Of a DNA stretch of 38,138 nucleotides, positions 27,021-38,028 are shown piece after piece. Numbering within the stretch: the stretch's first letter is position 1; every line of letters starts with the position of its first letter. The position numbers and the translations under genes were made by a program. Location of the stretch: positions 1-38,138 of the forward strand of contig PABA01000226.1 in NCBI GenBank assembly GCA_002699025.1, read 5' to 3'. The notes under the pieces were generated by a model that was given only the letters and a program-made list of their open reading frames with translations, did no database searches and was not told the DNA's origin. Origin of the DNA: Sandaracinus sp. (lineage in GTDB: Bacteria; Myxococcota_A; Polyangia; Polyangiales; Houyiibacteriaceae).

Positions 27021-27389
27021 CTATTCGCAGACGCTCTCGCCGCGGCAGTCGGTCTCGCAGCCCCCGCCCGAGCAGGCGAAGGCGCAGCGGGCCTGGTCGC
27101 GGCAGAAGAGCGCGCAATCGCCGCCCTCGCAGTCGAAGGCGCAGTCTGCGCCGCCCGTGCAGGTGAGCGTGCACTCGCCGCCCGCGCAGCTCCCGTCGCA
27201 GACGGCGTCCGCGCAGTAGAAGTTGCAGAAGCCCTCGGGGCACTCGAAGGCGCACTCGTCCCCGCTCCCGCAGCTCGCGTCGATGTCCGAGCCGCAGCCG
27301 GCGACGAGCGAGGCGAGGAGCAGGAGCGGGACGAGGAGCGGGAACGGAAGCGCGCGCTTCTGCGGACGCGCGGAGGCGCTCAGGTCCAA
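27021..27389 (-). CDS. Cys-rich lipoprotein downstream of tdh
   Basis: 122-aa predicted lipoprotein. A basic N-terminus and long hydrophobic stretch ([18 protein letters not shown]) end at Cys32 of the lipobox VAGC. The mature part (about 90 aa) is a run of short modules such as [34 protein letters not shown] and [10 protein letters not shown], with Cys spaced three to five residues, likely a disulfide-rich beta-solenoid or metal-binding rod. Its TTG start (27389) overlaps the last codons and stop of tdh by 10 bp, implying translational coupling; GTG at 27332 is a possible alternative but lies inside the hydrophobic stretch. No function is known and no link with threonine catabolism is evident. 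Confidence 0.7.
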
Positions 27390-28420
27390 TCGAGGACGAC
27401 CTTGCCGCTCTGGCCGCTCCGCATCACGTCGAAGCCCTCCTGGAAGCCCTCGATCGGGTAGCGGTGCGTGAGCAGCGGCGAGACGTCGAGGCCGCTCTGG
27501 AGCATGGAGGCCATCTTGTACCAGGTCTCGAACATCTCCCGGCCGTAGATGCCCTTGAGGATCAGCCCCTTGAAGATGACCTGGTTCCAGTCGATGGAGA
27601 CGTCCTTCGGCGGGATGCCGAGGATGGCCACGCGCCCGCCATGGTTCATGGTCTGGAGGAGGCTCTCGAAGGCGGCGCCGTTGCCGCTCATCTCCATGCC
27701 CACGTCGAAGCCCTCGGTCATGCCGAGCTCGCTCATGGCGTCCTTCACCGGCTCCACCGCCGTCTTCGCGTCGCGCACGTTGATGGCGAGCGAAGCGCCC
27801 ATCTTCCGCGCGAGCGCGAGCCGGTAGTCGTTCACGTCCGTGATGACGACGTGGCGCGCGCCGCAGTGGCGGGCGATGGCGGCGGCCATGATGCCGATGG
27901 GCCCGGCGCCGGTGATGAGCACGTCCTCGCCGACCAGGTCGAAGCTCAGCGCCGTGTGCGCGGCGTTCCCGAGCGGGTCGAGATAGGCGGCGATCTCGTC
28001 GGGGATCGAGGGCGGCAGCTTGAAGGCGTTCTCCGCCGGGAGCTGGAGGTACTCGGCGAAGGCGCCGGAGCGGTTCACGCCCACGCCGACGGTGTTGCGG
28101 CAGAGGTGGCGCTTGCCTGCGCGGCAGTTCCGGCAGTGGCCGCAGGTGATGTGCCCCTCGCCGCTCACCCGGTCGCCGACCGCGAAGCCGCGCACGTGCG
28201 AGCCGACGGCGGCGACCACCCCGGCGAACTCGTGGCCCACGGTCATGGGCACGGGGATGGTCTGCTGGGCCCAGTCGTCCCAGTTGTAGATGTGGACGTC
28301 CGTGCCGCAGATGGCCGTCTTGGCGATGCGGATCAGGAGGTCGTTCGGGCCGACCTCGGGGACGGGCACCTCCTCGAGCCAGATGCCCTCGGCGCGCTCC
28401 TTCTTCACGAGCGCCTTCAT
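27380..28420 (-). CDS. tdh: L-threonine 3-dehydrogenase
   Basis: Zinc-dependent medium-chain dehydrogenase, 346 aa, oxidising threonine to 2-amino-3-ketobutyrate with NAD+. It aligns end to end with E. coli Tdh: Cys38 of TAICGTDVH and the following His as catalytic-zinc ligands, GHEFAGVV, the structural-zinc cluster [15 protein letters not shown], the NAD-binding [50 protein letters not shown] and the end [13 protein letters not shown] at 28420 matches the E. coli start MKAL. An in-frame TTG overlapping the kbl stop is a less likely start. It lies 26 bp downstream of kbl, so the two form an operon; the Cys-rich lipoprotein gene overlaps its 3' end. Confidence 0.97.
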
Positions 28421-28446
28421 GCTCTTCGGGAGCTCGGCCTCGACCC

Positions 28447-29643
28447 TCAAGAGATCACCTCCAGCTCCTTGCCGACGGCGATGAAGGCGTCGATGGCGCG
28501 GTCGAGGTGCGCCCGCTCGAGGCCCGCGCTCATCTGCGTGCGGATGCGCGCCTGGCCCTTGGGCACGACCGGGTAGGAGAAGCCGATCACGTAGATGCCG
28601 CGCTCGAGGAGGAGGTCGGCCATGCGGCTGGCGAGCTTGGCGTCGCCGAGCATGACCGGGATGATCGCGTGGTCGCCGGGGAGGAGCTCGAAGCCGGCGG
28701 CCTCCATCTTCTCGCGGAAGTAGGCGGCGTTCTCCCAGAGCTTCGCGCGGAGCTTCGCGCCCTCGCTCTCGAGGAGGTTCAGCACCTCGATGCTCGTCGC
28801 GGCGATCACCGGCGCGAGCGTGTTCGAGAAGAGGTAGGGGCGCGAGCGCTGGCGCAGCCAGGCCACGATCTCCTTCCGGCCCGCCGTGTAGCCGCCGGAG
28901 GCGCCGCCGAGGGCCTTGCCGAGCGTGCCCGTGATCACGTCGACCCGGCCCTTCACGCCGAGCTTCTCGTGCGTGCCCGCGCCGGTCTCGCCGACGAAGC
29001 CGACGCCATGGCAGTCGTCGACGAAGGTGATGGCGCCGTACTCGTCGGCGAGGTCGCAGATGGCCGGGAGGTTCGCGTAGTAGCCGTCCATGGAGAAGAC
29101 GGCGTCCGTGGCGATGACCTTGAAGCGCGCGTCCTTCGCCTCCTCGAGCTTGGCGCGCAGGTCGTCCATGTCGTTGTTCGCGTAGCGGAAGCGCTGGGCC
29201 TTGCAGAGGCGGATGCCGTCGATGATCGAGGCGTGGTTCAGCGCGTCGCTGATGATCGCGTCCTCGGGGCCGAAGCAGGTCTCGAAGAAGCCGCCGTTCG
29301 CGTCGAAGCAGGCGGCGTAGAGGATGGTGTCGTCCGTGCCGAGGAAGCGGCTGATGCGCGCCTCGAGCTCCTTGTGGACGTCCTGCGTGCCGCAGATGAA
29401 GCGGACCGAGGCCATGCCGTAGCCGTGGTCGTCGATGGCCTTCTTGGCGGCCTCGAGCAGGCGCGGGTGGTTGGCGAGGCCGAGGTAGTTGTTGGCGCAG
29501 AGGTTGATGACCTCCTGGCCGTCGTCGCCCACCTGGATCGCCGCGTCCTGGTGCGAGGTGATGACGCGCTCTTCCTTGAAGAGGCCCTCGTCGCGAAGGG
29601 CGGCGGTCTCCTTGGCGAGGTGATCGAGGAAGGGCTGATGCAT
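28447..29643 (-). CDS. kbl: Glycine C-acetyltransferase (2-amino-3-ketobutyrate CoA ligase)
   Basis: PLP-dependent alpha-oxoamine synthase, 398 aa, the same length as E. coli Kbl. It splits 2-amino-3-ketobutyrate with CoA into glycine and acetyl-CoA, the step after Tdh. Visible motifs: [59 protein letters not shown] with the cofactor Asp and His, and the PLP lysine Lys243 in [15 protein letters not shown]-terminal [20 protein letters not shown] is the standard substrate-site end. It is the first gene of the kbl-tdh unit. The leader of about 66 nt has AGGA ten bases before the ATG. Confidence 0.97.
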
Positions 29644-30034
29644 GGGTCGGTCGTCCTGGCTGCGTCGGGGAAGGGGCGAGGGATTGGCGTGCGGAGCGGG
29701 GCCGCGCGGTCGCGGAGCATATAGGGGCGGCGCGGGCGGCCGGAAGGCGGGTCGTGAGCTTCCGCTCGCGCTCGGAGGCCGAAAACGCCTTTCGTTTCGT
29801 TCGTTTGGGGCGCGACCCGGTGAGCGTTCGGCGAGCCGCGGGGCTCGTTCCAGGAGCGCGAGGAGGGCGCTGTCGGCGGCGCGAGGACGGATCCTCGACC
29901 AGGCCCGCCCGGCGCGCTTGCCGACGCGCTCCCGGCGCGGGCCGGGCGGGGAGCGCGGGAGGCTCGAGCGAAAAAGATCGCGGCCCCGTGACCCGATCCG
30001 CGCGCCGCCCGCCTCTCCTCCGGGCGAGGTGACC
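29644..30034. other. 391-bp divergent intergenic region
   Basis: It lies between kbl (minus) and the DUF1552 gene (plus). It holds the TATATGCT -10-like site for kbl and a short AT-richer tract, TTTCGTTTCGTTCGTTT (around 29790), with no gene recognised. The right edge carries the GAGGTGA ribosome-binding site (30026-30032) of the DUF1552 gene. Confidence 0.6.
29716..29723 (-). promoter_or_regulatory. Putative kbl -10 box
   Basis: On the minus strand TATATGCT contains both TATATG and TATGCT. A start about seven bases downstream would give a leader of about 66 nt to the kbl ATG. No good -35 is visible. Confidence 0.45.
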
Positions 30035-31339
30035 ATGGCGCGACGAACGAGCAATCGACGGCGATTTCTCCGCGGGGCCCTGGCGGGCGCTGCGGCCCTG
30101 CCCTTCCTGGGCGGCCTGGCCGGGCGAGGCGGGGTGCTGGGGCGGAGCCGCACGCAGGCGGACGGACGCGGCCACGCGAAGCGGCTGCTGGTCTTCTTCA
30201 CGCCGAACGGGACCGTGCACCGGCACTGGCGGCCGACCGGCGGCCGCGCGGACTTCGCCTTCCGCGAGGGCGACATCCTCTCGCCGCTGACGCCCTGGCG
30301 GAGCCAGCTCAACGTGATCGACGGCCTGGTCTTCGAGGGCGCGTCCAACCACGAGGGCGGCATGCGCGCCATGCTCACCGGGGGCGGGGACACCTCCATC
30401 GACCAGCACGTGGCGGCGAGCCTCGGCGCGAGCGCGCCCTTCGGCTCCCTCGAGCTCGGCGTCCAGACGAGCGCCTGGGGCGGCAACGTGCAGACGCGCA
30501 TGTGCTACCGGGGCGGCGCCTACGTCCCGCCGAACGACCGGCCGAACGACGTCTACCGGCGCGTCTTCGGGAGCCTCGCGAGCGAGCCCGCGGAGGTCGA
30601 CGCCGTCATGGCGCGGCGGGCGAGCGTGCTCGATCTGCTGCAGGACGAGCTCGCCGATCTGCGCGGCCGGGCCGGGGCGCTCGAGCGGCCGAAGCTCGAC
30701 GCGCACCTCGAGGCGCTGCGGAGCGCGGAGACCTCGCTGATGGTGCCGGGCGCGACGGGCGCCTGCGACGCGCCGGCGGCGGTGATGGAGATGGACCCGA
30801 TGGCGAACGACCACTTCCCGGCGGTCGGGCGCGCGCAGATGGACCTGGCCGTCGCCGCCCTCGCCTGCGGCATGACCCCGGTCGCGTCGCTCCAGTGGTC
30901 GCACACGGTCGGCCCCTTCGTGCCGAGCTGGCTCGGCATCTCCGAGGGGCACCACTCGCTCTCGCACATCGACGACGGGAACCCGGCCGGGATCGCCGAC
31001 TTCGTGGCCATCGAGCGCTGGTTCGCCGAGCAGTTCGCCTACTTGCTGGAGCGCCTCGACGCGACGCCGGACCCGGAGGGCGACGGGACCATGCTGGACC
31101 ACACGCTGGTGATCTGGGCGCAGGAGCTCGGCGATGGGCGCCTGCACGAGTGCGTGGACGTGCCCTTCGTGCTCGCGGGGGCGGCGGACGGGTTCCTCCG
31201 CACGGGGCAGTACCTGCAGACCGGGGGCACCTCGCACACGAAGCTCCTGGTCTCGATCGCGCAGGCCATGGGGCTCGATGACCGGGTCTTCGGTGACCCG
31301 GCGCACGGGACCGGCCCGCTCGAGGGGCTGGCGGCGTGA
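30035..31339 (+). CDS. DUF1552 family Tat-exported protein
   Basis: 434-aa protein of the DUF1552 family, usually found beside DUF1592-type proteins in Planctomycetes and Myxococcota. Residues 5-30 form a Tat signal, [21 protein letters not shown], so it is folded before export to the periplasm. Characteristic segments are [78 protein letters not shown] and [27 protein letters not shown], resembling the alkaline-phosphatase/sulfatase-like DUF1501 group. No biochemical function is established for the family. The start has the best ribosome-binding site in the window, GAGGTGA. It is in an operon with the downstream DUF1592-type gene: a GTG overlaps its TGA. Confidence 0.88.
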
Positions 31340-31365
31340 GGCGGGCGGCGATGGACGCGCGCGCG

Positions 31366-31428
31366 ACGAAGGCCATGGAGATGACGAAGGCCATGGAGAT
31401 GACGAAGGCGACGAAGGCGACGAAGGCG
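31366..31428 (+). repeat. In-frame minisatellite made of start and ribosome-binding-like units
   Basis: Two 18-bp units ACGAAGGCCATGGAGATG (31366-31383, 31384-31401) are followed by three 9-bp units ACGAAGGCG (31402-31428). All lengths are multiples of three and every ATG is in frame with the next gene. AAGG and GGAG motifs are interleaved with the ATGs. Confidence 0.93.
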
Positions 31429-31440
31429 ATGGAGACGACG

Positions 31441-33765
31441 ATGACGCCGCGCCCCCTGGGCATGCTCCTCCTCCTCGGGCTGCTGGGCGCCTGCCAGGGG
31501 CACATCGACGGGCCCGCGGGCCCCGGGGATGGCTCGACGGGACCGGGCGACCCGCCCGGCGAGGATCCGGCCGACGACCTCCCGCCCCCCTGCGACGAGG
31601 AGCTGGTCTGGTTCGAGACGCACCTCTGGCAGCCGCTCCTCTCGGTGCAGTGCGTGGGCTGCCACTCGAGCGAGGGCCCGGCCCGGAACACGCGCCTCGT
31701 GCTCCAGAGCGAGGAGGTCGAGGGCTGGCGCGAGGCCAACTACCTCGCCACGCGCCGGGTCGCCGTGGCCGAGGCCGGCGGCATGCCCCTGCTCCTCCTC
31801 AAGCCGACGGACCTCCACCCGGACGGGCACACGGGCGGCGACCTGGTGGACGTCGACTCCCGCGCGTACCGCGAGCTCGGGGAGTTCAGCGCGAGCGCCG
31901 CGAGCGAGGCCTGCGACGCGCCCGCCGACGCGCCGCCGGCCTGCGACGGGCCGATCCCCGGCCGGCGCCTGCTCCGGCGGCTGACGCCGAGCGAGTACGA
32001 CGCCACCGTGCGCGACCTGCTCGGCGTCGACGCCGCCTACGGGGCGAGCTTCGCCGCGGACGAGGTGGTGCACGGCTTCGACAACCAGGCCGAAGCGCTC
32101 GTCGTCAGCGATCTCCTCGCCGACCAGCTCCGGCTCGCCGCCGAGGACCTCGCCGCGCGCGCCCTGAGCGAGCGCCGCGAGCTCGTGCCCTGCGCGCTCG
32201 CGGCGGGGGACGACGCCTGCGCCGAGCGCTTCGTCCGCGACTTCGGCCGGCGCGCCTTCCGTCGACCGCTCACGGAGACCGAGGTGGGCCGCTACCTGCG
32301 CCTCCACGCGCTCGGCGAGGGCTTCGCGGGCGGCGTCGAGCTGGTGCTCCAGGCCATGCTCCAGTCGCCGAACTTCCTCTACCGGAGCGAGCTCGGCCAG
32401 GCCGGCGCGGACGGCACCTTCACGCTCACGCCCTGGGAGATCGCGACGCAGCTGAGCTACTTCTTCTGGGGCACGCTCCCGGACGACGCGCTCTTCGAGG
32501 CGGCCGAGAGCGGCGCCCTGAGCGACCCGGACGAGCTCGAGGCGCAGGCTCGGCGGCTCCTCGCGGACCCGCGGGCGCGGCCGCAGATCCACCGCTTCGT
32601 GGCCCAATGGCTCGGCACCGACCAGGTGCGCAGCGTGCCCAAGGATCCGGCGACCTACCCGGAGCTCGACGACGCGCTCCGCGCCGCCTTCGCCGCCGAG
32701 GAGGCCGCGCTGGTCGACCACGTGCTCGAGGAGGGAGGCGACTTCCGCGACCTCCTCACCCTGCCCGTGGCCGCCCTCGAGGGTCCGCTCGCGGCGCACT
32801 ACGGGCTCGAGGGGAGCGGCGTGGTGGACGCGCCGCGCCGGAGCGGCCTGCTCACGACCGGCGCCATGCTCACGGTGCACGCGCGCCCGAACAGCTCCTC
32901 GCCGATCCACCGCGGCCTGCTCGTGCGCGAGCGCTTCCTCTGCCAGGAGCTCCCGCCGCCCCCGCCCGGCGTGGTGGCCGAGCCGCCGCCGGTGGACCCG
33001 TCGCTCACGACGCGCGAGCGCTTCGCGGCGCACTCCTCGGAGGAGCCCTGCGTGAGCTGCCACCGGCTCATCGATCCCATCGGCTTCGCCTTCGAGCACT
33101 TCGACGGGGTCGGGCGCTGGCGCGAGACGGACGGCGAGCACGCCATCGACGACCAGGGCGAGATCGTGGCGAGCCGCGCGACCGACGGGCGCTTCGAGGG
33201 CGTGGGCGAGCTGGCCGCGCACCTGAGCGAGAGCCCGGAGGTGCATGGCTGCTTCGCGCGCCAGTGGCTGCGCTTCGGCTACGGCACGGAGGCGGGGGAG
33301 CGGCTGCGCTGCCTGCTCGAGGACGTGCAGGCCCGCTTCGACGCGGCGGACCTCTCCATCGAGGAGCTGCTGATCGCCCTGGCGACGGCGCCGCACGTGC
33401 GCGAGCGGCGCGAAGGCGAGGTCACGACGCCGACGCCCGAGCCGGAGCCCGACCCGGAGCCGGAGCCCGACCCGGAGCCGACCGAGCCCGAGCCCGAGCC
33501 GCCCACGGCGACCGGCGACCTCGAGGTCGAGGACACGATCGACAGCGAGTGGCCGACGGGGGCCTGCCACCAGGTCGTCGTGACGAACGTCGGCGAGGCC
33601 TCCCTGACCTGGTCCTGGGAGACCGACCTGGACGGCAGCATCACGACGCTCTGGAACGCGGAGGCGAGCGGCGAGAGCGGCCGGGTGCGTTTCCGCGGCG
33701 TCGTCTGGAACGCGACGCTGGCCCCGGGTGAGAGCGCCGACTTCGGCTTCTGCGCCCAGCGCTGA
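31441..33765 (+). CDS. DUF1587/1595/1592/1588/1585 lipoprotein with two haem-c motifs and CBM2-like tail
   Basis: 774-aa predicted lipoprotein: [12 protein letters not shown] places the lipid on Cys18. CVGCH at 71-75 is a c-type haem site of the planctomycete cytochrome kind. Then come DUF1587 (about 174-240, [16 protein letters not shown]), DUF1595 (about 258-320), DUF1592 (about 328-455), DUF1588 (about 467-570, including a second haem motif CVSCH at 537-541) and DUF1585 (about 585-655). A Pro/Glu linker (662-690) leads to a C-terminal domain (about 693-774) resembling carbohydrate-binding module 2: [37 protein letters not shown], with Cys709 and Cys771 able to bridge. ATG at 31441 gives a clean signal peptide; upstream in-frame starts back to the GTG at 31336 would add a repetitive stretch. 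Confidence 0.88.
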
Positions 33766-33868: not shown

Positions 33869-34990
33869 GTGCGTGCCCGCCTCGCCCTCGCTCTCTCGCT
33901 CCCGCTGCTGGCGACGGCGGCGCGAGCGCAGCCGGCGAACGGAGCGCCCGCCCAGGCGGTGGTCGCGGGTCCGCTCCCCGGCGACCTCCGGGCGCGCGTC
34001 GAAGGGCAGACCGGCGACCTCGCCTGGCGGCTCCGCTTCGAGCCTGCGGCGCCGCGCCCGGCGGGTCTGGACGCGGCGGCGCGGGCCTTCCCGGAGGCGC
34101 GGGTGGTCGTCTGGGTGCGCGGAGGCGAGAGCGACGCGCTCCGGCTCTCGCTCGTCGACCTCCGCGACCGGCGCCTCCTCGAGCGGGAGGTCGCGCCCCC
34201 GGAGGGCGAGGCCTTCGCGGCGTCCACGCTCCACGAGACCGCCGCGCTCCTGATCCGCGGCGCGCTCCAGGCGCTCAGCCTCGGCGGCGAGGTCGGCGTG
34301 GCGGTGCCGGCGCCCGCGCCCACGCCGGAGGCCCAGAGGCCGCCCGCCGTGCCGGCCCCTCCCCCACCTCCGCCACCGACCTCGCCCTGGCTCCTCGAAG
34401 CGGAGCTCGGCTGGCTCGCGGCCCTCGACGGCGAGAGCCCGGCCGCGCACGGCCCCCACGCCGGCCTGGCGCTGCGCTGGAAGCGGCTCCGGGTCGGCCT
34501 CGAGGTGGCGACGGGAATCGCCGCGACCCTGAGCGACGCCTTCACCCGCGTGGAGCTCCGCCGGGACGCGCTGGCCCTCTCCCTCGGCGTCGCGCTCCTC
34601 CGCGGCGAGCGCGGCGGCCTCGACCTCGGGCTCCGGCTGGGCGCCGCCCACTGGCAGCGCGGCGCCGTCGAGCTCCGGGCCCCGAGCGCCACGAGCGCGG
34701 CCCCGGCCCGGCACCACTGGAGCGCCCTCGTCGGCGCCGCGCTCCGGCTCACCTGGACGCCCCATCCGCTCGTGGGCCTCCGCCTCGCCCTCGGCGCCGA
34801 CCTCGTCCCCGCCGCCCCCGAGCTGGTCTACGAGGCTCCCGAAGGGGAGCGCCGCCGCAACGCCCTCTGGCTCGCTCAGCCTTTCCTCGGGCTCGCCCTC
34901 GTCGTGCGTACAGCACCGAATACAGGAAGGAATTCGGCGACGCGAGAGCTCGCTCACGCGCCGCGTGCAATTTTCCGGGAGGCGCCGTGA
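33869..34990 (+). CDS. Probable outer-membrane protein upstream of a sigma factor
   Basis: 373-aa exported protein. The signal peptide RARLALALSLPLLATAARAQ is cleaved after ARA. Residues about 25-145 form a soluble domain, predicted alpha/beta, followed by a Pro-rich linker (about 150-170, APAPTPEAQRPPAVPAPPPP). Residues about 172-345 show alternating hydrophobic strands typical of an eight-to-ten-strand beta-barrel, ending FLGLALVV. A further 27 residues (RTAPNTGRN to IFREAP) extend past the barrel. The extension is less GC-rich and ends 40 bp before the sigma gene's start. The start GTG at 33869 is fixed by the signal peptide and the TACCCT box. No family name can be given. The sigma factor and its partner follow. 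Confidence 0.72.
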   Translation: MRARLALALSLPLLATAARAQPANGAPAQAVVAGPLPGDLRARVEGQTGDLAWRLRFEPAAPRPAGLDAAARAFPEARVVVWVRGGESDALRLSLVDLRDRRLLEREVAPPEGEAFAASTLHETAALLIRGALQALSLGGEVGVAVPAPAPTPEAQRPPAVPAPPPPPPPTSPWLLEAELGWLAALDGESPAAHGPHAGLALRWKRLRVGLEVATGIAATLSDAFTRVELRRDALALSLGVALLRGERGGLDLGLRLGAAHWQRGAVELRAPSATSAAPARHHWSALVGAALRLTWTPHPLVGLRLALGADLVPAAPELVYEAPEGERRRNALWLAQPFLGLALVVRTAPNTGRNSATRELAHAPRAIFREAP

Positions 34991-35017
34991 CCCGATCCAC
35001 CGAGCGCGGGCCTCTCT

Positions 35018-35022
35018 GGAGG
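35018..35022 (+). promoter_or_regulatory. Ribosome-binding site that decides the sigma factor start
   Basis: GGAGG at 35018-35022 is only two bases from the ATG at 35025 but eight from the in-frame GTG at 35031. The optimal spacing indicates GTG at 35031 as the start, although ATG at 35025 cannot be excluded. Confidence 0.55.
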
Positions 35023-35030
35023 TGATGCAG

Positions 35031-35597
35031 GTGGCCATCCCGCACGACGACGGCCTCGAGAGCTGGCTCCCCGCGGCGCAGCGGGGAGACCGGCGCGCGG
35101 CCGAGCGCGTGCTGCGGGCGCTGCTGCCGCGGGTCCGCAACCTCGTGCGCTACCTGGTGCGGGGCGACAGCCACGTGGACGACATGGCCCAGCAGGCGCT
35201 GATCGCGATCCTGCGCGGGCTGCCGAGCTACCAGGGCACGGGCTCCTTCGAGGCCTGGGCGGACCGCATCACCGTGCGGGAGACCCTGCGCATCGCGAAG
35301 AAGGAACGCGCGCGGGCGCAGGCGCGGCGGGAGGCGGCGCCGGACCTGCGGGTCGTGCGCGCCGAGGGCGCCCGCCCGGACGCCTACCTCGAGCGGCGGG
35401 AGGCGGCGCGGCTGCTCGACACGCTGCCCGCGGAGCAACGCGAGGCGCTGGTGCTGCACCACGTGCTGGGCATGAGCGTGCCCGAGGTGGCGGAGGCGCT
35501 CGGCGTGCCCTTCGACACGGCCAAGAGCCGGCTCCGGCTGGCGAAGAAGAAGCTGCGCGCGCGCGCCGAGGCGGCGCAGGGGGGACGGGGACGATGA
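35031..35597 (+). CDS. ECF-like RNA polymerase sigma factor
   Basis: 188-aa sigma-70 family regulator with region 2 and region 4 only, the ECF layout. Region 2 (about 17-92) includes VDDMAQQALIAILRGLPSYQG and the -10-recognition helix SFEAWADRITVRETL. Region 4 (about 127-178) has LPAEQREALVLHHVLGMSVPEVAEALGVPFDTAKSRLRLAKKKL, a clear helix-turn-helix for -35 recognition. The final residues are basic. It overlaps by 4 bp (ATGA) with the next gene, a membrane protein that is the likely anti-sigma partner. The target promoter cannot be deduced. A less GC-rich stretch upstream (about 34905-34975, coding for the tail of the preceding gene) may contain its promoter. Confidence 0.9.
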   Translation: MAIPHDDGLESWLPAAQRGDRRAAERVLRALLPRVRNLVRYLVRGDSHVDDMAQQALIAILRGLPSYQGTGSFEAWADRITVRETLRIAKKERARAQARREAAPDLRVVRAEGARPDAYLERREAARLLDTLPAEQREALVLHHVLGMSVPEVAEALGVPFDTAKSRLRLAKKKLRARAEAAQGGRGR

Positions 35598-36448
35598 GCA
35601 GCGACGAGATCGGAGAGCTCTTCCCGCTCGACGACGGGCCGGGGCCCGCGCGGCCCCTCGACGAAGGCGCGGCGGACGCGCTGATCGCCGGCGCCCTCGA
35701 CGCCTGGGAGGCGGGCGAGGCCGAGGCGGCGACGCCGGCGCCGGCGAGCGCGCCCCGCTGGCCCTGGCTGATCGCCGCGGGCGCCCTCCTGGTGGCCGGC
35801 GGCGCGACGGCCGCCTGGCTCGCCTGGCCCGAAGAGACGCCGCCGGGAGAGACGCCGCGGGAAGAGACGCCGCCGGAAGAGACGCCGCCGCCCGCGCCGG
35901 CGGCCCCGGAGCCCGCGCCGCCGCTGCCGGAGGTCGCGCCCACGCCGCCGCGCGCGAGCATGGAGATCGGCGAGGTGCGCGTGGAGCCGGAGGTCGACGA
36001 GGTCGACGAGCCGGAGGCGCCCGAGGCGCGGCGCCCGCGTCGGCGCCCCCGGCCCGTCGCCCCGGCCGAGACCCCGGACGATCTCCTGCGTCGGGCCAAC
36101 GACGCGCGCCGGGCCGCGCGCTGGCGCGAGGCCGAGCGCACCTACGTCGAGGTCACGAGCGCCTACCCGGGCACCCACGCCGCGTACGTGGCGCAGGTCT
36201 CGGCCGCCGCCCTCCGCCTCGAGCACCTGGGCGACGCGCGGGGCGCGCTGCGGCTCTACCGCTCGGCCGTGCGCCACGGCGGGGCCCTGGACGCGGACGC
36301 CCGTCACGGGCTCGCGCGCGCCCATCGCCGCCTCGGCCAGCGCGAGCGGGAGGCGGAGGCGCTCGAGGCGCTGGTCGCGCGCCACCCCGGCTCGCCCTTC
36401 GCGCAGGCGGCGCGGCGGCGCCTCGAGGAGCTGGAGGCCGCGCGCTGA
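35594..36448 (+). CDS. Single-pass membrane protein with TPR-like domain, likely anti-sigma factor
   Basis: 284-aa inner-membrane protein. The cytoplasmic N-terminus (about 1-55) is acidic with ALIAGALDAWEAGEAEA; a TM helix spans about 57-78. A long Pro/Glu linker with ETPPGETPREETPPEETPP (about 80-160) leads to a periplasmic TPR-like domain (about 162-284; LLRRANDARRAARWREAERTYVEV and following pairs). Its ATG overlaps the sigma factor's TGA, so the pair is translationally coupled, the usual arrangement of sigma and anti-sigma factor. No zinc-binding ZAS motif (HxxxCxxC) is seen, so the anti-sigma role is an inference from position. The TPR could instead be an OmpA-, TolA- or YbgF-like module. 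Confidence 0.75.
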   Translation: MSSDEIGELFPLDDGPGPARPLDEGAADALIAGALDAWEAGEAEAATPAPASAPRWPWLIAAGALLVAGGATAAWLAWPEETPPGETPREETPPEETPPPAPAAPEPAPPLPEVAPTPPRASMEIGEVRVEPEVDEVDEPEAPEARRPRRRPRPVAPAETPDDLLRRANDARRAARWREAERTYVEVTSAYPGTHAAYVAQVSAAALRLEHLGDARGALRLYRSAVRHGGALDADARHGLARAHRRLGQREREAEALEALVARHPGSPFAQAARRRLEELEAAR

Positions 36449-36571
36449 GGGGGGAGCCTCCCGCAGAAGAACGCGGCGAGCCCGCGACCCCATCACCGGA
36501 CCCGCGTCCGTCGCTCGACGCCGGTGGGCCTCCGGTGGCCGGGCGGACCGCGCGCGAGTCGCGGCGGGAGC

Positions 36572-36609
36572 CCTCGACGAAGCCCCGCACCGCATCCTCG
36601 ACGAAGCCC
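36572..36609. repeat. 14-bp direct repeat
   Basis: CCTCGACGAAGCCC occurs at 36572-36585 and 36596-36609, in the 251-bp gap between the TM/TPR protein and the last lipoprotein gene. The rest of that gap shows no gene. Confidence 0.8.
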
Positions 36610-36686
36610 TCCTCGGCGTCCTCCTCGCCGCTCCGCTCCGCGCCCTCGTGGAGGCGGCGCCCGGCTCCGCGGCCCCACCACGGCGC

Positions 36687-36692
36687 TAGACT
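36687..36692 (+). promoter_or_regulatory. Leaderless-type -10 box TAGACT, 7 nt before ATG
   Basis: TAGACT ends seven bases (GCACGCG) before the ATG at 36700, which opens a textbook lipoprotein signal peptide. No Shine-Dalgarno is present. Confidence 0.6.
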
Positions 36693-36699
36693 GCACGCG

Positions 36700-38028
36700 A
36701 TGCGGCTCCTCGCGCGCGCCTCTCTGCTCCTCGGCCTCCTCGCGGGCTGCCCGAGCACCGACGTGATCGCGCGCCTCGAGGAGCGCGACGGCGGCGCCGC
36801 CGAAGACGCCGCAGCGATGGACGCAAACGCCCCCGATGGCGGCTTCTGCGCCGGCGAAGGCCCGCTCGTCCTGGTGGGCGACGGGCCACGCACCCGCTGC
36901 GGCGGCAGCGTCGCCGAGACCACCTTCCGCTACGCCATCTGCACCTGCGACGGCCTGGCGCTCTCGACGCCCGTCGAGACCGACGCCTTCGACAGCCGCG
37001 TCGGCCCCTGGGCGCCGGGCGAGGGCGGCGGCTCCGTCGGCACCAATGGAGCGCTCGACATCGCGGCCCGGGCGTCCATCGACGGCAGCCTGATCGGCGC
37101 CGAGCGCTGCCACTTCAGCGTGGAGGGCGGCGTCACCGGGACGCTCCGGAGCGGCGGCGAGCTCGGCGGCGGGGCGCCCGTGGCCGTCGGCAAGGACGCC
37201 TACGTCGCCGGGGACGTGCGATTGAGCGCGCTGGACGTCGGCGGCGTCCTGACCCTGCCGGCGGAGGCGACGCTCGACGTGCCCGCGCTGAGCACGGGCG
37301 AGACCCGGCGCGCGCCGGTGAGCGTCACCGCCCCCTGCGACTGCGCAGAGGAGCGCCTGCTCGACGTCGGGGCGCTGGTGGCGGCCCACGAGGAGGCGAA
37401 CGACGACGCGGCGCTCGGCATCGACCCGGACGACTACGCGAACGGCGGCGCGCGCACGCTCGAGCTCGACTGTGGGAAGGTCTGGCTCTCGCGCATCGGG
37501 GGCGAGGCGCTGACCATCGTGGCGCGCGGGCGGGTCGCGCTCTTCGTCGGCGGCGACCTGGCGCTCGAGGGGCCGCTCGAGGTGCGCACGGAGGGCGAGG
37601 GGGAGATCGACCTCTTCGTGGCCGGGAACGTCGTGGGCGCGGCGCGCTGGATGCTCGGCGATCCGGCGGCGCCGGCGCGGGTGCGGCTCTACGTGGGCGG
37701 GAGCGGCACCGTGGACCTGGCGGGCGGCGGGCTCTTCGCGGGGAACGTCTACGCGCCGCGGGCCGAGCTGGTGACGCCGAGCGAGGTGGAGGTCTTCGGC
37801 TCGCTCTTCGTGCGGCGGCTCGTCTCCTCGGGCGGGCTGCGCGTGCACTACGACCGCGCGGTGCTCGACGCCGGGGACGACTGCGCGCCGAGCGCGACCT
37901 GCACCAGCTGCCTCGACTGCGGCAACCAGGCCTGCGTGGACGGCACCTGCGGCCTCTGCCGGAGCGACGCGGACTGCTGCTCGCCCCTGGTCTGCGCGGG
38001 CGGCGTCTGCGTCCCCGAACCGTTCTAG
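36700..38028 (+). CDS. DUF7305-like lipoprotein with Cys-rich C-terminus
   Basis: 442-aa predicted lipoprotein. MRLLARASLLLGLLAGC places Cys17 in the lipobox LAGC. After an Asp/Ala linker (GAAEDAAAMDANAPDGG) the body (about 48-390) is rich in beta-strand: repeated Gly-rich phrases such as GALDIAARASIDGSLIGAE, GDVRLSALDVGGVLTLPAEA, GRVALFVGGDLALEGPLEV and GGLFAGNVYAPRAELV look like a right-handed beta-helix similar to the DUF7305/bactofilin-like family. The last 50 residues (SATCTSCLDCGNQACVDGTCGLCRSDADCC) are a Cys-rich module like the one in the VCBS lipoprotein at 6134. Function is unknown; surface or envelope location is inferred. The gene is followed by a tandem repeat. Confidence 0.82.
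   Translation: MRLLARASLLLGLLAGCPSTDVIARLEERDGGAAEDAAAMDANAPDGGFCAGEGPLVLVGDGPRTRCGGSVAETTFRYAICTCDGLALSTPVETDAFDSRVGPWAPGEGGGSVGTNGALDIAARASIDGSLIGAERCHFSVEGGVTGTLRSGGELGGGAPVAVGKDAYVAGDVRLSALDVGGVLTLPAEATLDVPALSTGETRRAPVSVTAPCDCAEERLLDVGALVAAHEEANDDAALGIDPDDYANGGARTLELDCGKVWLSRIGGEALTIVARGRVALFVGGDLALEGPLEVRTEGEGEIDLFVAGNVVGAARWMLGDPAAPARVRLYVGGSGTVDLAGGGLFAGNVYAPRAELVTPSEVEVFGSLFVRRLVSSGGLRVHYDRAVLDAGDDCAPSATCTSCLDCGNQACVDGTCGLCRSDADCCSPLVCAGGVCVPEPF

Follow-up and report, generated by a model that had tools for sequence, protein, structure and literature searches.

The 38,138-nucleotide stretch of contig PABA01000226.1 of Sandaracinus sp. (assembly GCA_002699025.1), called here the window, contains two adjacent genes on its forward strand, one encoding a DUF1552 protein with a signal peptide of the twin-arginine translocation (Tat) type and the other a DUF1592 lipoprotein that carries two haem motifs and ends in a carbohydrate-binding module of family 2 (CBM2). 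An initial annotation, made from the sequence letters alone, had described these two proteins as one unit and had recognised the Tat-type signal, the lipoprotein with CVGCH and CVSCH motifs, five linked domains of unknown function (DUFs) and a CBM2-like tail at residues 693–774; profile searches, structure modelling and comparisons with related genomes bore out all of these assignments. Pfam matches were judged against the Pfam gathering scores, and all six lipoprotein domains, including the five DUFs, lie above them. The features of the pair are as follows.

30035–31339, forward strand: DUF1552 (HXXSHH) gene, 434 aa, Tat-type signal peptide (Pfam PF07586 and AlphaFold2 model)
30056–30073, forward strand: twin-arginine motif RRRFLR within the signal peptide of the DUF1552 protein (sequence)
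31441–33765, forward strand: DUF1592 lipoprotein gene, 774 aa, two haem motifs, C-terminal CBM2
31492–31494, forward strand: lipobox cysteine, residue 18 (LLGAC followed by Q; sequence)
31591–31950, forward strand: N-terminal haem domain, residues ~51–170 (no Pfam match)
31651–31665, forward strand: first CxxCH motif, CVGCH, residues 71–75 (invariant in alignment A1)
31975–32166, forward strand: PSD3/DUF1587, residues 179–242 (PF07626, 4e-20)
32218–32391, forward strand: PSD5/DUF1595, residues 260–317 (PF07637, 5.7e-21)
32425–32808, forward strand: PSD4/DUF1592, residues 329–456 (PF07631, 1.3e-41)
32839–33132, forward strand: PSCyt3/DUF1588, residues 467–564, containing the second CxxCH motif (PF07627, 1.8e-34)
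33049–33063, forward strand: second CxxCH motif, CVSCH, residues 537–541 (sequence)
33190–33390, forward strand: PSD2/DUF1585, residues 584–650 (PF07624, 1e-10)
33406–33516, forward strand: Pro/Glu/Asp-rich linker (mostly Pro/Glu), residues ~656–692 (sequence; low model confidence)
33517–33762, forward strand: CBM2 module, residues 693–774, the end of the protein, with a W-W-W triad and an internal Cys pair (PF00553)

The tail of the lipoprotein is a genuine CBM2, as indicated by profile, fold and conserved aromatic residues of the binding face. The CBM_2 profile matched residues 697–772 of the whole lipoprotein (E-value 7e-14, 52 bits, cut-off 24), and the search with the tail alone gave an E-value of 7.7e-16 (58.7 bits against the same cut-off). 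In the AlphaFold2 model of the lipoprotein, built on 46 sequences and having a mean predicted local distance difference test (pLDDT) score of 87.8, the tail forms a β-sandwich with pLDDT values of about 84–95. The best solved match of the tail is the CBM2a of Cex from Cellulomonas fimi (6qfs; Z-score 10.6, 81 residues at 1.7 Å); an equal Z-score of 10.6 was reached with the endoglucanase D CBM2 (3ndy), and chitin-binding modules were among the best solved matches as well. The three aromatic residues of the binding face are all tryptophans in the window protein, and the aligned positions hold W, W and W/Y/H in 2rtt, 3ndy and 6f7e. Across 54 DUF1592-CBM2 fusions from named genomes, tryptophan occupies each of the first two positions in 53 of 54 proteins; the third position holds W, Y, F or H in 50 and one of S, Q and E in the other four. 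The linkers at the same place in the relatives are other low-complexity sequences. The module is thus under selection, since the face aromatics have been kept in nearly all 54 relatives while the linkers diverged.

The tail is short, spanning positions 4–82 of the 101 of the CBM_2 profile, where the protein stops; it has neither the length of about 100 residues nor the end-joining disulphide of a Cex-like CBM2a and contains an internal Cys pair instead. This shortness leaves its membership of the CBM2 family intact, because xylan-binding CBM2 chains of 87–88 residues have been solved (1e5b, 1heh). Both cysteines of the internal pair are present in 49 and both absent in 5 of the 54 fusions, and such a both-or-neither pattern in 54/54 is the expectation for a disulphide. 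Cysteines at the same positions (GxC ... GFC) were found in 18 of 32 non-fusion CBM2 proteins of the class (L021–L089), and the sequence pattern suggests a myxobacterial CBM2 subtype. A predicted role of the tail as a tether to a polymer, as judged from the module itself, is well supported.

Upstream of the tail, the lipoprotein has the X132-type architecture, with PSD3, PSD5, PSD4, PSCyt3 and PSD2 in this order and a CxxCH motif inside PSCyt3. Searches of solved structures with the lipoprotein sequence revealed CBM2-type chains alone and none for the X132 core, and in the structural comparison of the lipoprotein model the list was likewise taken up by CBM2 modules, at the expense of the PSD/PSCyt3 core and the N-terminal haem domain. 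Lipoboxes similar to that of the window protein were detected with a crude pattern in 34 of 51 fusion relatives. The N-terminal domain containing the first CxxCH motif had no match in Pfam, where X183 and PSCyt1 were considered, weak Paired_CXXCH and cbb3 matches being seen in some relatives; a search of the Protein Data Bank with the profile of this domain found no X183 entry, and its best match was an amine dehydrogenase (E-value 0.016), aligned around the haem motif. The two CxxCH motifs, the signal peptide and the cytochrome c maturation genes of the genome together make up the sequence signature of a c-type cytochrome; there are three genomic matches to the cytochrome c assembly family PF01578, and two haems on the lipoprotein are plausible because the genes for c-type haem attachment are present. 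The start codon of the lipoprotein is ambiguous: the region that separates the DUF1552 stop from the lipoprotein signal (31351–31440) contains a short GACGAAGGCCATGGAGAT-like repeat and several in-frame ATGs, and further upstream an in-frame GTG, at 31336, overlaps with the stop codon of DUF1552. We took the ATG at 31441 as the start because it is preceded, at a distance of six bases, by a plausible ribosome site (GGAG) and yields a normal lipoprotein signal.

The DUF1552 protein matched PF07586 with an E-value of 2.8e-69 (234 bits, gathering cut-off 30) and has the twin-arginine motif NRRRFLRG close to its N-terminus. No solved structure matched it by sequence. Its AlphaFold2 model (pLDDT 92.4) gave a Foldseek match to sulfatases (E-value 5.7e-6) and VIA-align Z-scores of about 16 over 230–260 residues with ectonucleotide pyrophosphatases/phosphodiesterases (ENPPs) and sulfatases; the predicted fold (30158–31336) is that of the alkaline-phosphatase/sulfatase/ENPP superfamily. 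The formylglycine motif of sulfatases, C/S-x-P/A-x-R, is absent from the window protein, and C-x-P/A-x-R is not conserved in the 46 aligned rows; the fold is thus sulfatase-like, and the protein is not a canonical sulfatase. Conserved polar residues of the model include H65, D82, H183, H270, H330 and H360, and the metal site is likely to differ from that of sulfatases. Perhaps the DUF1552 family comprises non-canonical members of the alkaline-phosphatase/sulfatase superfamily. An invariant histidine was placed, by eye, at the position expected for the sulfatase nucleophile.

The source assembly (9.24 Mb, 95.9% complete) encodes 18 DUF1592 proteins, each in a DUF1552/DUF1592 pair, and the window protein is the sole one with a CBM2 (1/18). 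Its module is also the single CBM_2 match in the whole genome, and the idea of a common tail shared by many proteins of this genome was rejected on that ground; the N-terminal haem domain is likewise present there only once. The other 17 pairs have a core of the PSD3-PSD5-PSD4-PSCyt3-PSD2 type and a DUF1552 neighbour in common with the window pair, but their gene order is the opposite one, DUF1592 then DUF1552, and they contain no CBM2 and mostly a single CxxCH. One paralogue (L230, G000:C91:54800-61100) has no CxxCH motif at all; the PSCyt3 haem is therefore not universal.

Comparison with other genomes revealed that the fusion is a recurrent and old one. CBM_2 was matched in 64 of 290 genomes from the same class. 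The matches in long frames, which were retrieved, included DUF1592-CBM2 fusions in 37 genomes, amounting to 38 proteins in which the CBM2 is always last and follows a low-complexity linker. A scan of named genomes with the fusion family as query, in which the best 80 loci were examined, revealed the 54 fusions mentioned above, in Polyangium, Nannocystis, Sorangium cellulosum, Archangium, Byssovorax and many metagenome-assembled genomes of Myxococcota. When a query without the tail was used, the best matches belonged to the same family, N-terminal haem domain included, and most others started at about query residue 115. A tree inferred from 75 cores with a quick IQ-TREE search under LG+G4 unites the CBM2 proteins in a single clade, supported at 90% by the Shimodaira–Hasegawa-like approximate likelihood ratio test; the CBM2 label requires three changes, namely one gain and two losses (the tail is absent from genome G199 and mostly deleted in genome G052). 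Chance or an assembly artefact is ruled out by the 38 fusions in 37 genomes, the 54 named loci and the single clade. The CBM2 extension, which the initial annotation had considered unusual, is indeed so among the DUF1592 proteins of the source genome; the comparison with other genomes, however, places it in a conserved subfamily recurring across Myxococcota.

The arrangement of the pair is nearly constant. In 48 of 49 fusion loci with enough flanking sequence the DUF1552 gene is the immediate upstream neighbour; for DUF1592 genes that have neither the N-terminal haem domain nor CBM2, it is found downstream in 23/23. Five more loci without a detected tail possess the N-terminal haem domain and an upstream DUF1552 gene; in these the tail appears to have been lost (two loci), to be cut by the contig end (two) or to be in another frame (one). 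The extra haem domain is absent from a few fusions. Judging by these sequences, one old lineage of the pair is characterised by the CBM2 together with the extra haem domain and a reversed gene order. In two Sorangium genomes (L159, 9387–13980, and L162, 9488–14020) one further DUF1592 gene and two additional DUF1552 genes come after the fusion pair, giving a local cluster with genes of both families.

Several published proteins resemble the window lipoprotein. Cbp2D of Cellvibrio japonicus consists of CBM2, X158/YceI, FN3, X183 and an X132 domain led by DUF1587. The X183 cytochrome of this protein acts as a reductant of bacterial lytic polysaccharide monooxygenases (LPMOs), and according to the authors X domains of this type regularly occur together with CBMs (PMC8981238). 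Mutants lacking cbp2D or cbp2E grow more slowly on cellulose (PMC12542752). Compared via its published description, Cbp2D shares with the window protein a CBM2 combined with a DUF1587/X132 haem domain, a second one-haem domain, secretion and two CxxCH motifs; in the window protein, however, the CBM2 is C-terminal, Pfam searches found no X158/YceI and no FN3, the second haem domain has no sequence match to X183 structures, the protein is a lipoprotein paired with DUF1552, and the genome lacks LPMO_10. Cellvibrio was not among the best 80 named-genome loci of the fusion-family scan. TERTU_3803 of Teredinibacter turnerae, which contains CBM10, CBM2, X122, X132, X173 and X183, also unites CBM2 with X132/X183 redox domains, but is a large multi-module protein of a wood-degrading symbiont, with no DUF1552 pair described in the passages considered (PMC10916295). 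A Cellvibrio CBM2 'DUF1592 domain-containing protein' from the secretome of a wheat-straw community (PMC6004670, Table 1) likewise has both domains in one chain, but comes from a gammaproteobacterial, strongly cellulolytic genus. Verrucomicrobia possess PSCyt/PSD proteins, some with CBMs (Laminin_G_3, Bac_rhamnosid_N, NPCBM, CBM_6, PA14), in which, as here, PSCyt3 and PSD domains stand beside another gene family without an assigned function, but CBM2 is not listed for them (PMC5615132). The combination of CBM2 with DUF1587/X132 or DUF1592 had thus been published before (PMC8981238, PMC6004670 and PMC10916295), contrary to the suggestion in the initial annotation that it lies outside the usual architecture. 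Related haem proteins bearing such modules are already known in cellulose-degrading bacteria; the myxobacterial fusion lineage, with an extra haem domain and an inverted pairing with DUF1552, is not described in any of the openly licensed papers retrieved.

We tentatively favour the reading that the lipoprotein is an outer-membrane redox protein tethered to an insoluble polymer, with DUF1552 as its enzyme partner. The pair would then be an exported enzyme and an electron carrier at the cell surface. The lipoprotein is probably located in the outer membrane, facing outward, and would bind two c-type haems, one in the subfamily-specific N-terminal domain and one in PSCyt3; the type-A CBM2, on its flexible acidic linker, would dock onto the flat face of an insoluble cellulose- or chitin-like polysaccharide. 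The Tat-exported DUF1552 protein, predicted to adopt an alkaline-phosphatase/sulfatase-type fold, probably serves as the catalytic partner, and electrons from its reaction or from another surface reaction may be carried by the haems. Degradation of the polymer by the pair is possible, yet is not needed to account for the tether. A bolder version, which we regard as doubtful, would make the pair a Myxococcota-wide, LPMO-independent surface unit, in which a diheme outer-membrane lipoprotein, tethered through its CBM2 to crystalline polysaccharide, and a non-canonical DUF1552 enzyme of the alkaline-phosphatase fold couple reactions of the bound polymer, or of molecules retained on it, to extracellular electron transfer. 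Several points weigh against the favoured reading. Haem attachment, localisation and binding are all predicted, as are the partnership with DUF1552, its reaction and the direction of electron flow; the N-terminal haem domain has no convincing sequence match to any solved cytochrome; DUF1552 lacks the CxPxR nucleophile motif of sulfatases, hence its catalysis is at most putative; and CBM2 is missing from the G199 protein, a close relative of the same family (57% identical; L098/L195), and mostly deleted from another member of the clade, that of G052 (L115/L182), which makes the tether dispensable in some lineages. DUF1552/DUF1592 pairs are numerous in myxobacteria and have no assigned function, and a clade with a substrate-binding tail on the redox member provides the best clue so far to what such pairs contact. 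If the tail binds cellulose or chitin, the Cbp2D theme of bacterial redox proteins on polysaccharide would also hold for a predatory and scavenging phylum and for species without detectable LPMO_10.

An unlikely alternative is that the lipoprotein acts as a Cbp2D-like oxidative degradation factor, its CBM2 targeting the substrate and its haems feeding an LPMO or cutting cellulose or chitin by another oxidative route. The architecture of Cbp2D, which is needed for growth on cellulose, is the nearest published one (PMC8981238, PMC12542752), and the fusion genomes are mildly enriched in glycoside hydrolase family 9 (GH9; 15/37 against 62/253 others, p 0.047) and in weak LPMO_10-like matches (11/37 against 31/253, p 0.01), both values being uncorrected for genome size or kinship; no co-occurrence of GH18 with the fusion was detectable (17/37 against 94/253). 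However, LPMO_10, GH9 and GH18 had no match in the source genome, at its completeness of 95.9%, where only two GH5-type matches were found; an LPMO partner encoded in the genome was sought and none was found. Furthermore, the three genomes of the class with full-length LPMO_10 carry no fusion, all three families are missing from 8 of the 37 fusion genomes, and the window protein lacks X158 and FN3. With no GH9, GH18 or AA10-type LPMO detected in the genome and with weak co-occurrence in the class, the role in polysaccharide attack put forward in the initial annotation was overstated; a degradative role for the pair is weakly supported and is one of several live options.

The tail might instead bind the organism's own exopolysaccharide, slime or envelope glycan, so that the redox lipoprotein would be fixed in the matrix or in cell-cell contacts and not on food; this too is a doubtful proposition, although a lipoprotein anchor with a polymer tether fits a matrix component, the organism has few cellulose or chitin hydrolases, and genes for an extracytoplasmic function (ECF) sigma factor and/or an adhesin/bactofilin-like DUF7305 protein lie beside the pair here and in eight other clade members (one weakly). 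The binding face, however, is of the type that recognises crystalline polysaccharides, the best structural matches being cellulose- and chitin-binding modules, and no gene cluster for an own polysaccharide was seen linked to the pair, no search having been aimed at one. Folds of the β-sandwich type are frequently repurposed, and the tail could be a structural or protein-protein domain, for example one holding DUF1552, with no sugar binding. The S, Q or E at the third aromatic position in 4 of 54 fusions and the loss of the module in some relatives agree with such a role, which is nevertheless very improbable: surface-type aromatics are conserved at the CBM2 ligand positions, the long, variable, low-complexity linker is more in keeping with a free tether than with a docked subunit, and most DUF1552/DUF1592 pairs of the genome are without CBM2, so DUF1552 needs none.

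The region 3' of the pair (33872–38028) contains an open reading frame of 372 aa without a Pfam match, together with genes for the ECF sigma factor, a tetratricopeptide repeat (TPR) protein and the DUF7305 protein. When these neighbours of the window were searched for in the relatives, homologues of the ECF and/or DUF7305 proteins were found near the pair in six other fusion loci (L164, L165, L166, L168 weakly, L172 and L173) and likewise in both tail-less clade members (L182, L195), mostly upstream of the pair and on the opposite strand; they were found in 0/24 of the remaining non-fusion loci. It is possible that the ECF sigma factor and the DUF7305 protein are a regulator and a surface-protein partner of the pair. 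On the reverse strand, at 27380–29660, adjacent genes for threonine 3-dehydrogenase and glycine C-acetyltransferase (tdh-kbl) appear complete by eye; they seem unrelated to the pair, because a tdh query matched nothing in the flanks of the fusion loci. At 27021–27389 on the same strand, a small putative lipoprotein is encoded, which is very rich in cysteine and contains repeating C-x-x-x-C units.

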